Shown piece by piece: positions 36,110 through 45,144 of a stretch of 45,279 nt of DNA (its first letter is position 1; each line of letters begins with the position of its first letter). This stretch comes from Thermoflexales bacterium (lineage in GTDB: Bacteria; Chloroflexota; Anaerolineae; J036; Brachytrichaceae): assembly GCA_019694215.1 (NCBI GenBank), contig JAIBCK010000019.1, positions 1 to 45,279 of the forward strand, in the 5' to 3' direction. The notes beneath the pieces were generated by a model that saw only the letters and a list, made by a program, of their open reading frames with translations, was not told the DNA's origin and did no database searches. Both the position numbers and the translations under genes were made by a program.

Positions 36110-36153
36110 CGCGCTAGTACAAGATTTCGGGCCGCCCCGGGCGCGCCGCATGC

Positions 36154-36159
36154 TATACT
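36154..36159 (+). promoter_or_regulatory. Extended -10 promoter of the trp operon
   Basis: TATACT preceded by TGC, giving an extended -10 form, about 7 nt before the inferred transcript start near 36166. It directly precedes the T-box leader and is the only good candidate in the gap. Confidence 0.6.
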
Positions 36160-36165
36160 CGTTTT

Positions 36166-36444
36166 CACAGGCGAGGACCCAGACAAGTAGTTGTCGTGAC
36201 GGGAATCCGCCGTTTGCTTGGCAGAGAGTCCGGCCCCGCGGTGAAAGCCGGATCGAGCAATCGGCAACGAATGGACTGGTCAGCCGCAACCCGAACGCCG
36301 CAAGGCCGGTAGGCGCGCCGGAGCCGCGACCGTTATCGCGCGGAGCGCATGATCGTGCGCGAAAGAGGAGCGCCGCAAGGCGTTCGAATCAGGGTGGTAC
36401 CACGAGCAACGCCTCTCGTCCCGATGCGGACCGAGGCGTTTTTT
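36166..36444 (+). ncRNA. T-box riboswitch (tRNA-Trp) of the trp operon
   Basis: Long leader with classical T-box parts. Stem I base pairs GACC (near 36175) with GGTC (near 36278), and its apical region shows AGAGAG (36223-36228) and GGTGAAAGCCGG (36240-36251). The specifier loop reads GAATGGACT, with TGG at 36272-36274 followed by A, so the codon is Trp. The T-box AGGGTGGTACCACG lies at 36391-36404, just before a terminator. Uncharged tRNA-Trp would stabilise the antiterminator and switch on trpEGD. Start of the RNA is inferred from the -10. Confidence 0.92.
36408..36444 (+). terminator. T-box controlled terminator before trpE
   Basis: AACGCCTC (36408-36415) pairs with GAGGCGTT (36433-36440), followed by TTTT. 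The 5' arm lies right after the T-box sequence with which it competes, so this is the regulated terminator of the leader. Confidence 0.9.
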
Positions 36445-36476
36445 GTTGCCCGGCCCATCGGGCGCAGGAGGACTGT

Positions 36477-38033
36477 GTGCCAAAACTGATCATCAAACCT
36501 TCGCTCGATGAAGTGCGCGAGCTGAGCGCGCGCGGCAACCTCATCCCGGTGTATGCCGAATTGCCCGCCGACCTCGACACGCCGGTCTCGCTCTTCCTGC
36601 GGTTGGCGGGCAGCGACCCGGCCTTCCTGCTCGAGTCCGTCGATGGCGGCGAGCGCATCGCGCGTTACTCCTTCATGGGCGTCCGGCTGCGCGAGGCTTT
36701 CATCCTGCGGGGCGGTCAGCTGGCGCGCCATCACCTGACCGATTCCGGGCTGCGCATCGAACCCCTGCCTGAGCCCGTCTCAAATGAGCCCGGCCGCAAG
36801 GGCGACGTCCTCGATGCGCTGCGTGCCGAGATGAAACGTTATGCCTTTGTGCCGCTGCCCAATCTGCCGCGCTTCTGCGGCGGGTTGGTGGGCTACACCG
36901 GCTACGACGTGGCGCGTCAGTTCGAGGCCCTGCCCGAGACCGCGCGAGATGTGCTCGGCACACCGGAGGCCATCTACCTGCTGGCCGACACCCTGGTGGC
37001 CTTTGACCACGCCCGCCAGCGCCTGCTCATCATCGCCTGCGCCTTCACCGATGGCGCGGAGTCGCTGTCAGAGGCCTATGACGATGCCGTGGCGCGCATC
37101 AAGAGCATCTTCGCCCGGCTGTCGGCGCCGATGGCCGACCTCGCGCCCAACCCCGCTGCCGTGTGCTCGCCGGCGCGCTCGAACAAGACCCAGGACGAAT
37201 ACGAGCGGCTGGTCGTGCAGGCCAAGGAATACATCAACGCCGGGGACACCTTTCAGATCCAGGTCTCGCGCCGGCTCGCGCGGCGCACGACGGCCCATCC
37301 CTTTGCGATCTATCGCGCGTTGCGGCGGATCAACCCGTCGCCGTGGATGTTCTACTTCGACTTCGGCGCGCTGCTCGGTTCGAAGGGTGGCAACCCGCTC
37401 CCACCGCTGCGCCTGATCGGCGCATCGCCGGAGATGCATGCGCGCTTCGAGGACGGCATCGCCACCGTGCGCCCAATCGCGGGCACGCGCCGGCGTGGCC
37501 TGACCGAGGCCGAGGACCGCGCCATGGCGCAGGAGTTGATCACCGATCCCAAGGAGCGCGCAGAACACGTCATGCTGGTCGACCTCGGGCGAAATGACAT
37601 CGGGCGCATCGCCAAATACGGCACGGTGAGTGTGCCCGACCTGATGGTGATCGAGAATTACAGCCATGTCATGCACATCGTCAGCAGCGTGCAAGGGACG
37701 GTGCGGGATGGCTTGGACTGCTTTGATGTGCTGCGGGCGAGCTTCCCCGCCGGCACGCTGACCGGGGCACCCAAGGTGCGCACGATGGCGATCATCGAGG
37801 CGCTGGAAGGCGAGCGACGCGGCATCTACGGCGGCTGCGCCGGCTATTTCTCCTTCAACGGCATGATGGACACCTGCATCATCATCCGCACCATCGTCAT
37901 GATCGGCGATACCTGCTATCTCCAGGCCGCGGGCGGCGTGGTGGCTGACAGCACCCCGACCGGCGAATACAAGGAGACGGCCAACAAGCTGCGGGCCACC
38001 ATGGTGGCCATCGACGAGGCCGAGCAGGCCTGA
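36477..38033 (+). CDS. trpE: Anthranilate synthase component I
   Basis: Converts chorismate and ammonia to anthranilate, the first step of tryptophan synthesis. 518 residues. The N-terminal regulatory part carries LLES (51-54), the site where tryptophan feedback binds in relatives. The catalytic core has [66 protein letters not shown]-like [20 protein letters not shown] and [17 protein letters not shown] 36477 is the start: AGGAGG precedes it and the earlier part of the open frame lies inside the T-box. It is followed after 22 nt by trpG. Confidence 0.95.
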
Positions 38034-38055
38034 CCGTTCACACGGAGCACAACGA

Positions 38056-38622
<567 letters not shown>

Positions 38623-38638
38623 CCCCCGGAGCATCCGC

Positions 38639-39655
38639 ATGATTCAACCCCTGATTGCCAAACTGTTTGAACACAAGCCCCTGACCGCCGATGAGTCCGA
38701 AGCGGCCATGGACACCATCATGTCCGGCAACGCCACGCAGGCCCAGATCGGTGCCTATCTCGCGGCGCTGAGGATGAAGGGCGAAAGCGCCGAGGAGATC
38801 GCCGGAAGCGCGCGGGCCATGCGCGCCAAAGCCATCCGCGTGCAGGCGCAGCACACCGATCTCGTCGACATCGTCGGGACGGGTGGCGACCGCTCGGGCA
38901 CGTTCAACATCTCGACCACGGCGGCCTTTGTCGTCGCCGGCGCAGGGGCCACGGTCGCCAAGCACGGCAACCGCGCAGCCTCCTCGCAGAGCGGGAGCGC
39001 AGATGTGCTCACGGCGTTGGGCGTCAAAGTCGACCTGCACCCGGAGCAGGTAGCGCGCTGCATCGACGAGATCGGCATCGGCTTCATGTTCGCGCCGGTT
39101 CATCATCCGGCCATGAAGCACGCGGCGGGACCGCGCCGCGAGATCGCCGCGCGGACGATCTTCAACATCCTGGGCCCGCTGTGCAACCCGGCCGGCGCGC
39201 GCAAGCAGCTGCTCGGCGTGTTCTCCCCCGCCCTCGCGCCCGTGATGGCGGAAACGCTTCGCACCCTCGGGAGCGAGCATGTGCTCGTGGTCAACGGGGC
39301 CGGGCACGTCGACGAGCTCACGTTGGATGGCGAGAACACGATCAGCGAGCTGCACAACGGTCAGATACGCAACTACGCGATCACCGCCTCGCAGTATGGG
39401 CTCTCGCGCGCCGATGTCGACGCGCTCGGCGGGGGCACGCCGGAGTTCAACGCCGCGATCACGCGAAGCATCCTGGAGGACAAGGCCACGCCCGCGCGTC
39501 GGGATGTGGTGGTCTTCAACGCCGGTGCCGCGTTGTATGCCGCTGACATCGCCCCGAGCATCGCAGAGGGCATCACGCAGGCCCGCGCCGCCATCACGTC
39601 GGGACGGGCGCTGCAGAAGCTCGATGCGCTGATCGCCCTCAGCCACAGCGCCTAG
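38639..39655 (+). CDS. trpD: Anthranilate phosphoribosyltransferase
   Basis: Transfers phosphoribose from PRPP to anthranilate (338 residues). The PRPP-binding loop DIVGTGGDRSGTFNISTTAAF, KHGNRAASSQSGSADVLTALG and NPAGARKQLLGVFSP are diagnostic. ATG 38639 lies 16 nt after trpG. The rest of the pathway (trpC, trpF, trpB, trpA) is not downstream; the next gene is convergent, so the operon ends here as trpEGD. No clear terminator is seen in the 31-bp gap. Confidence 0.96.
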   Translation: MIQPLIAKLFEHKPLTADESEAAMDTIMSGNATQAQIGAYLAALRMKGESAEEIAGSARAMRAKAIRVQAQHTDLVDIVGTGGDRSGTFNISTTAAFVVAGAGATVAKHGNRAASSQSGSADVLTALGVKVDLHPEQVARCIDEIGIGFMFAPVHHPAMKHAAGPRREIAARTIFNILGPLCNPAGARKQLLGVFSPALAPVMAETLRTLGSEHVLVVNGAGHVDELTLDGENTISELHNGQIRNYAITASQYGLSRADVDALGGGTPEFNAAITRSILEDKATPARRDVVVFNAGAALYAADIAPSIAEGITQARAAITSGRALQKLDALIALSHSA

Positions 39656-39686: not shown

Positions 39687-40250
39687 CTACGCGGCCTCGC
39701 CGCCGTCCTTGCGAAAGCTGACGAAGAAGAGGATCGCGACGCCTGCCACGATGCAGATGTCGGCGATGTTTGACACCGGCCAGTCAAAGCCGATCTGAGG
39801 GATCTGCAAGTGCAGGAAGTCGGTGACATGCCCGATGCGCAGTCGGTCGATGATGTTGCCCGTCGCCCCGCCCAGCTGCAACCCAAGCGCGACCTTGGAC
39901 AGTTTGTCGCGATCGGGCAGGCGTGGCGCGAAGTAGACGATCATGCCGACGACGACGGCGAAGACGACAAAGAAGATCACCCCGCCCTCGGTCAACAGGC
40001 TGAACGCCGCGCCGGTGTTCTGGGCATGCGTGAGCGTGAAGTAGGGCGTCAGGAAGTCGGCGATCACCTTCGTTTGATATGGCTCGATCGTGGCCTCGAC
40101 CAACCGTTTGGTGATCTGATCGATCAGCAAGGCATCAAACGCAACCATGAGCAGCAGGCCAAAATGCCTGACAAACCAGCTCCTGCCGCGTTGCCCCTGC
40201 AGGGCCTCCACCTCAGCGACCGACGATTCCTGTGTGACCGGGTTCTCCAT
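39687..40250 (-). CDS. lspA: Lipoprotein signal peptidase (signal peptidase II)
   Basis: Membrane aspartyl protease that removes signal peptides of lipoproteins after lipid attachment. 187 residues with four hydrophobic segments. Visible blocks: LLIDQITKRLVE, FTLTHAQNTGAAFSLL, GGATGNIIDRLRIGHVTDFL (Asn132, catalytic Asp144) and SNIADICIVAG (catalytic Asp164). It follows the fusion gene below by 26 nt, with ileS upstream of both, which resembles the conserved ileS-lspA order of many bacteria. ATG 40250 lies 9 nt after TACCAT. Confidence 0.95.
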   Translation of the reverse strand: MENPVTQESSVAEVEALQGQRGRSWFVRHFGLLLMVAFDALLIDQITKRLVEATIEPYQTKVIADFLTPYFTLTHAQNTGAAFSLLTEGGVIFFVVFAVVVGMIVYFAPRLPDRDKLSKVALGLQLGGATGNIIDRLRIGHVTDFLHLQIPQIGFDWPVSNIADICIVAGVAILFFVSFRKDGGEAA

Positions 40251-40276: not shown

Positions 40277-41563
40277 CTATGCGTCTTTGCGGCGGAACGT
40301 CAACCAGCCCAGGATCCCCGCCCCGATCAGGGCGGCCACGTGGCCGGGGCTGAACGCCAAAGCAGTGCCTATGCGAAACGGCGCGAGTGTCAGGCCGCGG
40401 ACCGCACCGTCGATAAGGCTTGACGCCAGCCCGCCAACGATGAGCGCGTAGGCGACCCGCCGCAGCGTCTCACCAGCACGCGCGCCCATCCACAGCATGG
40501 CGGCCAGCGAAACCCCCAACAGCTCCGTGCCCAACGCCAAAACGCCACCTATGCCCGTGCGAGGGATGCCTGCCACACCGAGCTTGGAGAGCTGGTCAAG
40601 CGCCAGCACGACCCCTGCAACCAGTGCCGGGAGCGATACCAGCGAGAGCCAGGCCGGCCGCTCCGCAGCGTCGCGCTGTGGGCGCGTTACCGCCCGCCCG
40701 GCGGTCTGCGTGCCGCGCGATGCGGGCGCCGCCCCACCCGCGCGCGAGGCCGACAGGGCCGACGCAGGCGCGACAACGGGCGTCGGGCTGCCCCGAAAGG
40801 CCGGCTGTACATCGGTCACGCCGATGTCGATGCGGCCGGTCTGCCAGCTGCGCAGGATCGCGCGCCCATCGGCCTGATCGGTCGAGCGCCCGAGCCGCTC
40901 GACGAGCAACGTCTCGTCTCCACACACCAGCACCGCACAACTGGGGGTGTTGAGGAAGTAGCGGGCTGCCTCAAGAAGCTGCGCGGTGTCCTCGGGCGAC
41001 GCAGAGTGCGCGTTGTCGATGGCAAACAGCAACACCGAGTTGGCCAGCGAAATGGTGTTGAGAATCAGCGAAGGCAGTGCTGCCCGAAAGCGGCGCACAA
41101 ACGCCGTTGTGGCCGCCATCAGGCCCTCGTTGGAGGACGCCGCGGCCTGGCCGCGGTCGGCATCCTCCTGCAGGCGCGTAATGGCCAGGAGCTCGGCGCG
41201 CAGCGCGTTCAGCGCCGGGCGCTCGGTCGGCAACGCCACCCCATCCAGCGTTTCAAGCAACTCGAAGATCAGGCTCTGCCAGGGCCGCAGGTAGCTTGGC
41301 AAGGTGGCGGCATCGACATACGCCGCGATCACCTTGCGGTGCTCCGGCGTGCGCGGCGGCCGGTTGGCGTCCGGCGCAGCCACCCGCAGCACCGCCTCGA
41401 TGTCGCGCGGCCGACCAAACAGGGTGTTCATATGCGGACCCTGCGCCCCGTGCGTGCGATCGAGCAACGTCATCAGCACGGCCAACGCACGCGACTGATC
41501 CTCGGTCAACGACAAGGTTGGCTCGGCGATCGCCGGGGTCCGGGTACGTTGCGCGGTATGCAT
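40277..41563 (-). CDS. KAP-NTPase-like segment fused to a degenerate LspA-like membrane domain
   Basis: 428 residues with two unequal parts. Residues about 78-260 look like part of a KAP-type P-loop NTPase: PWQSLIFELLETL, then the Walker-B-like SVLLFAIDNAHSASPED (Asp183), and FLNTPSCAVLVCGDETLLVERL. No Walker A is visible. Residues about 311-425 are a four-helix segment aligned with LspA: ALDQLSKLG, IPRTGIGGVLALG and GGLASSLIDGAVRG. The catalytic residues are changed: Ala394 for the first Asp and His408 for the second, Ser for Asn, so peptidase activity is unlikely. Starts at ATG 41563, with a minus-strand TACACT at 41578-41583. Its function is unknown. Confidence 0.7.
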   Translation of the reverse strand: MHTAQRTRTPAIAEPTLSLTEDQSRALAVLMTLLDRTHGAQGPHMNTLFGRPRDIEAVLRVAAPDANRPPRTPEHRKVIAAYVDAATLPSYLRPWQSLIFELLETLDGVALPTERPALNALRAELLAITRLQEDADRGQAAASSNEGLMAATTAFVRRFRAALPSLILNTISLANSVLLFAIDNAHSASPEDTAQLLEAARYFLNTPSCAVLVCGDETLLVERLGRSTDQADGRAILRSWQTGRIDIGVTDVQPAFRGSPTPVVAPASALSASRAGGAAPASRGTQTAGRAVTRPQRDAAERPAWLSLVSLPALVAGVVLALDQLSKLGVAGIPRTGIGGVLALGTELLGVSLAAMLWMGARAGETLRRVAYALIVGGLASSLIDGAVRGLTLAPFRIGTALAFSPGHVAALIGAGILGWLTFRRKDA

Positions 41564-41659: not shown

Positions 41660-45058
<3,399 letters not shown>

Positions 45059-45144
45059 GGATGAAAAATGGCTCTTGACCCCACCAGTTGAGGGGCCGCG
45101 CAATGTTACTATGACCGGCAGACGTTGCCATCAATCTACCGCTG

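Follow-up and report, generated by a model that had tools for sequence, protein, structure and literature searches.

Gene layout at the ileS–lspA locus

The window, i.e., the whole stretch of DNA analysed here, comprises 45,279 nt from a Thermoflexales bacterium (Brachytrichaceae; assembly GCA_019694215.1, contig JAIBCK010000019.1). On its minus strand, ileS is followed by a 428-codon fusion ORF and then by lspA:

41660-45058, minus strand: ileS (isoleucyl-tRNA synthetase; tRNA-synt_1 5.7e-76), start uncertain, ATG at 45058 or TTG at 45103
40277-41563, minus strand: KAP–pseudoLspA fusion gene of 428 codons and a stop; homologues found in 27 of the order's 28 genomes; AlphaFold mean pLDDT 78.9
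39687-40250, minus strand: lspA, an ordinary lipoprotein signal peptidase (Peptidase_A8 1.8e-35), VTDF and SNIAD catalytic motifs intact

The fusion ORF extends from an ATG at 41563 to a stop at 40277-40279 (428 aa), and its same-genus homologue begins at the equivalent Met. A gap of 26 nt separates it from lspA. On the plus strand, 36150-39655 holds ORFs named from their sequences as trpE, trpG, and trpD, which point toward lspA from the opposite strand.

The gene order was compared across 25 full-length members of the family, the window protein included (alignment A1; 404-635 aa as aligned), from which G001 and G017, both cut by contig ends, were left out. The reading frames are intact in all 25. 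Directly upstream, on the same strand, every one of them has ileS, and lspA is the next gene downstream in 22; in 14 of these 22 the nearest candidate lspA start overlaps the fusion stop by 1-8 nt. The original prediction had placed the gene between ileS and the real lspA, in agreement with this survey, and had asked whether the fusion always neighbours lspA; it does in these 22, but not in the three members of genus g2, where lspA lies elsewhere. Since the fusion of g2 stays with ileS after lspA has moved away, adjacency to lspA is not obligatory. Among other families of the class, ileS falls inside the fetched stretch at 9 of 21 lspA loci; the ileS–lspA linkage is thus probably old, with the fusion inserted into it.

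Several loci depart from the usual arrangement. At L128 a DksA/TraR-like ORF, as read from its sequence, fills the gap. G009 keeps the fusion, and its only other LspA match (L103, 4361-4885, minus strand) differs from the usual lspA of the family, being divergent but intact in its motifs. In G047, which belongs to another family, two tandem lspA genes follow ileS (L107, 2825-3394 and 3388-3921, minus strand), both with Asp at the dyad positions.

Distribution of the fusion

Fusion homologues were found in 27 of the 28 searchable genomes of the order Thermoflexales/'Ca. Roseilinea'. The single exception, G019, is a 78% complete assembly in which ileS was not matched either, so the assembly does not contain the locus. 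The protein search covered 60 genomes, the window's own included, and all 27 that matched belong to the window's family, with no fusion match in any of the 32 genomes from other families of the class. When 400 genomes of the phylum were searched with the profile, eight matched, all from the same family as the window; the threshold was E <= 1e-25 with three candidates scored per genome, at which a very diverged fusion elsewhere could be missed. Across 396 genomes of the class (three candidates scored per genome), the matches listed outside the family correspond to a single half, i.e., to lspA or to a KAP domain. No fusion outside the window's family was seen among the matches listed in these class and phylum searches. 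A protein scan of genome contigs with the window sequence alone found no relative, and a scan with profile A1 found 15 among 36 pattern matches, again all from the same family. The fusion therefore extends throughout one order-level lineage, a wider spread than was supposed when a survey of Chloroflexota was proposed. No description of an inactive LspA or of a KAP–LspA fusion was found in the open-licence papers searched (titles and abstract starts), in keeping with the initial remark that the arrangement has no precedent; within that literature, we regard this as a conserved KAP–pseudoLspA fusion without earlier description.

The C-terminal half is a pseudo-LspA

40292-40651, minus strand: pseudo-LspA domain, residues 305-424, four predicted membrane helices; 5dir Z 15.2, family profile against 6ryo 1.3e-13
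40382-40384, minus strand: Ala394, at the position of the first catalytic Asp (D118 of S. aureus LspA); Asn in 21/25, Asp in 1/25
40340-40342, minus strand: His408, at the position of the second catalytic Asp (D136 of S. aureus LspA); His in 25/25

As a single sequence, the window protein stays below the Pfam cut-offs of both families (Peptidase_A8: E 0.026, 15.2 bits, cut-off 25; KAP_NTPase: E 0.021, 14.5 bits, cut-off 20), so relatives were needed to establish the observation. Peptidase_A8 matches 24 of the 25 A1 members (best 1e-13), and of six relatives scanned singly five exceed the cut-off, L053 (24.1) being just under 25. Profile A1 matches the solved LspA structures 6ryo, 9emz, and 5dir at 1.3e-13 to 1.9e-13. 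In the AlphaFold model of the window protein, pLDDT is mostly 82-97 in the N-domain and about 50-90 in the membrane domain; its residues 302-423 superpose on 5dir with Z 15.2 and an rmsd of 2.4 over 121 residues, and on 6ryo with Z 14.2. The model of L047, a full-length relative, agrees (6ryo Z 15.5; RdrA Z 15.3). The C-terminal domain of the window protein is accordingly modeled with the four-helix LspA fold. This is the segment that the original prediction aligned with LspA, and helices unrelated to LspA, named there as the refuting outcome, are not what the profile and structure comparisons returned.

The catalytic positions were read from an alignment that combined 27 family LspA, 23 class LspA, and the 25 fusion domains, with the conserved residues and the dyad as assigned in PMC6952399. 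The first dyad Asp is present in 27/27 family LspA and 23/23 class LspA; in the fusions it is Asn in 21, and the four exceptions are the window (Ala), L032 (Thr), L036 (Asp), and L055 (His). The second dyad Asp is likewise present in 27/27 and 23/23 LspA, and it is His in 25/25 fusions. Ala394 and His408 do stand at the dyad positions, as had been read from the window alone. In S. aureus LspA, D118N and D136N each leave 0% activity according to Table 1 of PMC6952399. All 22 lspA genes adjacent to a fusion keep both catalytic Asp residues with their motifs intact. Nine of the family's 27 genuine LspA, including that of the window at 39687-40250, have Ser in place of the conserved Phe in the FNxAD motif.

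Apart from the dyad, the N52/G54 (NxGAAF) loop of the beta-cradle is gone in essentially all fusions, in a region whose alignment is unsure; the N52 column has Asn in 1/25 fusions (otherwise gaps or other residues) versus 27/27 and 23/23 LspA. Other pocket positions are kept, i.e., the D21-type Asp in 25/25, K25 in 24/25, D109 in 25/25, R110 in 20/25, and N133 in 21/25. The window copy is more eroded than most members (R110 to Gly, N133 to Ser, N106 to Ser), and substrate binding may therefore be lost in it. Taken together, the LspA half looks catalytically dead not just in the window, where this was first proposed, but across the whole family of 25.

The N-terminal half is of KAP type

40826-41506, minus strand: KAP-type NTPase fold, residues 20-246; pLDDT mostly 82-97; KAP_NTPase 25/25 at E <= 1; RdrA AAA+ Z 15.5
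41393-41416, minus strand: residues 50-57 (GRPRDIEA), where the Walker A loop has been lost; G-x4-GK[ST] here in 17/25 members
41003-41038, minus strand: Walker-B-like strand, residues 176-187, with Asp183; Asp in 23/25; next residue Asn184, acidic in 0/25
40652-40825, minus strand: low-confidence linker, residues 247-304; pLDDT about 37-53 over 250-303; a middle domain lies here in most relatives

The Pfam family KAP_NTPase matches all 25 A1 members at E <= 1 (best 1e-12). Of the six relatives scanned singly, L043 (48.4 bits), L047 (35.8), L042 (23.4), and L053 (23.3) are over the cut-off, and L056 (17.3) and L032 (17.9) are under it. The KAP likeness of this part, which could have been refuted by a profile comparison finding it unrelated, is thereby supported, and the features on which it was based are present: Trp95 of the "PWQ" block is invariant (25/25), Asp183 of the Walker-B-like strand is kept in 23, and the VLVCGDETLL strand falls in the sensor region of the N-domain. 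In the predicted structure, residues 16-253 superpose on RdrA with Z 15.5 and an rmsd of 4.0 over 214 residues. Of the KAP proteins found outside its family, the nearest to the fusion are KAP–FGE proteins of other Anaerolineae. L096 (3093-5153, plus strand) encodes one with a KAP and an FGE-sulfatase-type domain (Pfam FGE-sulfatase 5.4e-41, KAP 6.8e-15), and the ORFs at L097, L098, L099, L100, L105, and L106, from other Anaerolineae, read as KAP followed by a domain of the same type.

By the strict pattern GxxxxGK[ST], Walker A is present in 17 of the 25 members and absent from eight, among them L051, L052, and the window protein, in which its absence had been noted. The label "NTPase remnant" given to this half fits the window copy but not the relatives with an intact Walker A. 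On the tree of the neighbouring ileS, the distribution needs four changes, three of them forced by starred branches, i.e., Walker A was lost several times within the family. We considered whether its loss is tied to that of the pocket, which is lost in 4/8 members without Walker A versus 2/17 others; with a Fisher p of 0.059 and only three independent pairs, such a tie is unsupported.

At position 184, directly after the Walker B Asp183, the 25 members have His (19), Arg (2), Lys (2), Asn (1), or Gln (1) and never an acidic residue, whereas each of the seven KAP proteins compared from other families has Asp or Glu there. As for P-loop NTPases in general, the lack of this acid would be expected to prevent hydrolysis. 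The NTPase half thus looks catalytically dead across the 25 members as well, including those that retain Walker A.

The middle domain (A1 columns about 300-500) is absent from the window protein and from L056, and L043 and L049 have low-complexity sequence instead. In full-length relatives it aligns with the stretch that follows Walker B in KAP proteins of other families and is therefore taken to complete the KAP module. A hallmark of KAP NTPases is the insertion of membrane segments into the NTPase domain. By hydropathy and predicted fold, no separate one is seen in the window N-domain, whose single peak above 1.6 (residues 164-182, 1.65) overlaps a helix (143-172) and a strand (176-183) predicted within the globular fold.

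Selection and origin

Nei–Gojobori counting was applied to 12 pairs within genera or of near relatives and to a 13th, distant pair, window–L053. For the 12 closer pairs, dN/dS is 0.09-0.30 in the N-domain and 0.15-0.58 in the pseudo-LspA, versus 0.05-0.22 for lspA in the 11 of these pairs that have an adjacent lspA. The window–L053 pair gives 0.50, 0.37, and 0.33 for N-domain, pseudo-LspA, and lspA, with dS of 1.5, 2.0, and 1.0, respectively. The window and the same-genus G001, compared over 118 codons, give 0.13 at a saturated dS of 2.0. Every domain of all 13 pairs tested is below 1, and the pseudo-LspA is under weaker constraint than lspA, yet not evolving freely. The values below 1 in close pairs argue against simple decay of the gene.

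In the LspA tree, all 25 pseudo-LspA domains group in a single clade (100/99), apart from the family's 25 vertical lspA (100/99). A recent copying of the neighbouring lspA is unsupported, the pseudo-LspA clade not being nested in the lspA of the family; the branches are long and the exact sister is unsure. The tree also holds a divergent LspA-like group with extra N-terminal sequence from other Anaerolineae families (L092, 1521-2465, plus strand; L093, 1883-2884, minus strand; L094, 1771-2523, plus strand), whose members cluster together (86/90). L092 and L094 are above the Pfam cut-off, and L093 and L094 have Asp at both dyad places (LDY, LAD/LKD) with the Asn of the FNxAD motif replaced.

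Discussion

The fusion resembles two known families without conforming to either. It shares with LspA (PF01252) the fold (5dir Z 15.2), four membrane helices, the DxxxK of TM1, the NxxDR-type Asp, the FN-x-A motif in most relatives, and the operon position next to lspA; it differs in the replacement of both catalytic Asp residues, the missing NxGAAF loop, and the large N-terminal NTPase fold. With KAP P-loop NTPases (PF07693, including the Anaerolineae KAP–FGE proteins and QatA) it shares the KAP_NTPase match of the N-domain and a middle domain that aligns with the post-Walker-B region of KAP–FGE; the differences are a C-terminus derived from LspA instead of FGE, D-H/N/K/R/Q in place of DD at Walker B, the loss of Walker A in 8/25, and the N-domain in which no separate membrane insert is seen.

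This anatomy is well supported, and the function is what we infer from it. Two inactive enzymes joined in one protein, of which one is a copy of the enzyme encoded next to it, and a lasting linkage between the genes point to a non-catalytic partner of lipoprotein processing. We tentatively read the fusion as such a partner, a membrane-anchored pseudoenzyme acting as regulator or scaffold, with our confidence a little short of even. The adaptor or regulator role first suggested for the gene is retained in this conditional form. Against it, the pocket of the window copy is further eroded, the N52/G54 loop is gone in essentially all members, lspA adjacency has been given up in g2, and the gene may just have landed in an operon that already existed.

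Both termini of LspA are inside. The KAP-type fold would be cytoplasmic, a placement that suits this topology, and would be tethered by an LspA copy without protease dyad and without substrate-capping loop. PMC6952399 describes the C-terminal residues of LspA as extending into the cytoplasm. The KAP part of many relatives could still bind nucleotide, without the usual catalytic acid. In the membrane, the LspA-shaped part would recognise LspA, Lgt, or the signal peptide of a prolipoprotein, and the KAP part would assemble or gate the LspA/Lgt/prolipoprotein complex, much as the pseudoprotease iRhoms bind clients without cutting them. The iRhoms are a functional analogy only: they too have a membrane protease fold with its catalytic residues lost, and they carry a cytoplasmic extension, but their fold is unrelated to that of LspA and their setting is eukaryotic. 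Recognition of client transmembrane segments by iRhoms is described in PMC7618786. By this analogy, the fusion could be a bacterial counterpart, in which a dead LspA binds lipoprotein signal peptides or LspA and passes them on or retains them, controlled by an ATP-sensing, non-hydrolysing KAP platform; so specific a picture is speculative and, in our judgment, unlikely.

The main rival is that the pseudo-LspA is a membrane anchor only, for a KAP platform that organises some other membrane complex, the lspA neighbourhood being a historical accident in which an lspA copy captured a KAP domain. KAP proteins elsewhere do carry other C-terminal domains, e.g., the FGE-sulfatase of L096, the pseudo-LspA evolves faster than lspA (0.15-0.58 over 12 pairs versus 0.05-0.22 over 11, window–L053 excluded), and lspA is no longer adjacent in g2. 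However, four polar positions of the kind found in the LspA active-site cluster, Asp323, Lys327, Asp385, and His408, are invariant or nearly so, which exceeds the needs of an anchor, and the gene order is kept in 22/25, with overlapping lspA starts in 14. We consider a mere anchor somewhat unlikely.

A second reading takes the gene as degenerating, i.e., the ancestor was an active NTPase–peptidase fusion whose remnant is being lost, above all in the window's genus. The window copy, without Walker A, middle domain, and several pocket residues, seemingly fits, as do the repeated Walker A loss (four changes on the ileS tree, three forced) and the higher dN/dS of window–L053 (0.50 in the N-domain, 0.37 in the pseudo-LspA). 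Against it stand the intact reading frames of all 25 full-length members, the low N-domain dN/dS of the 12 closer pairs (0.09-0.30; 0.13 for window–G001 over 118 codons, at a saturated dS of 2.0), and the invariance of His408. Slow decay becomes the preferred reading only for the window's lineage considered by itself, and for the family it is improbable.

Kinship also makes a defence role possible, i.e., a phage-defence or stress sensor of the QatA/PifA/RdrA sort with the four-helix part as membrane effector. PADLOC models of QatA match 19/25 members (best 2e-9) and those of PifA match 5/25, and RdrA, the AAA+ ATPase of RADAR, is the solved structure nearest in fold to the N-domain (Z 15.5, rmsd 4.0, 214 aligned); RdrA is not among the matches of the PDB profile search at E <= 1, and its genomic setting is different. 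QatA is encoded with QatBCD in the Qat system, and the genes immediately on either side of the fusion are ileS and lspA. The window protein, however, matches no PADLOC model at E <= 0.01, and the acid after Walker B is absent in 25/25. The genomic setting fits poorly as well: unlike mobile defence loci, the gene occurs order-wide as one syntenic copy per genome amid housekeeping genes. We regard this as quite improbable. More doubtful still is a re-tooled enzyme with a new active or metal site built from His408, Asp385, Asp323 (each 25/25), Lys327, and the usual first-dyad Asn (21/25), since that Asn is replaced in the window (Ala), L032 (Thr), L036 (Asp), and L055 (His) and the N52/G54 capping loop is gone.

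LspA is usually regarded as a lone housekeeping enzyme and as an antibiotic target. A conserved inactive LspA–NTPase fusion, kept in one gene cluster across an order, suggests that a dedicated non-catalytic partner can take part in lipoprotein maturation. Such a partner would be a double pseudoenzyme that arose by joining two different enzyme families, and because the repeated loss of the ATP-binding loop is recorded in living relatives, the order of events is testable. Should the bacterial iRhom counterpart prove true, we would know of no pseudo-LspA before this fusion and of no earlier dedicated regulator of the Lgt–LspA step.
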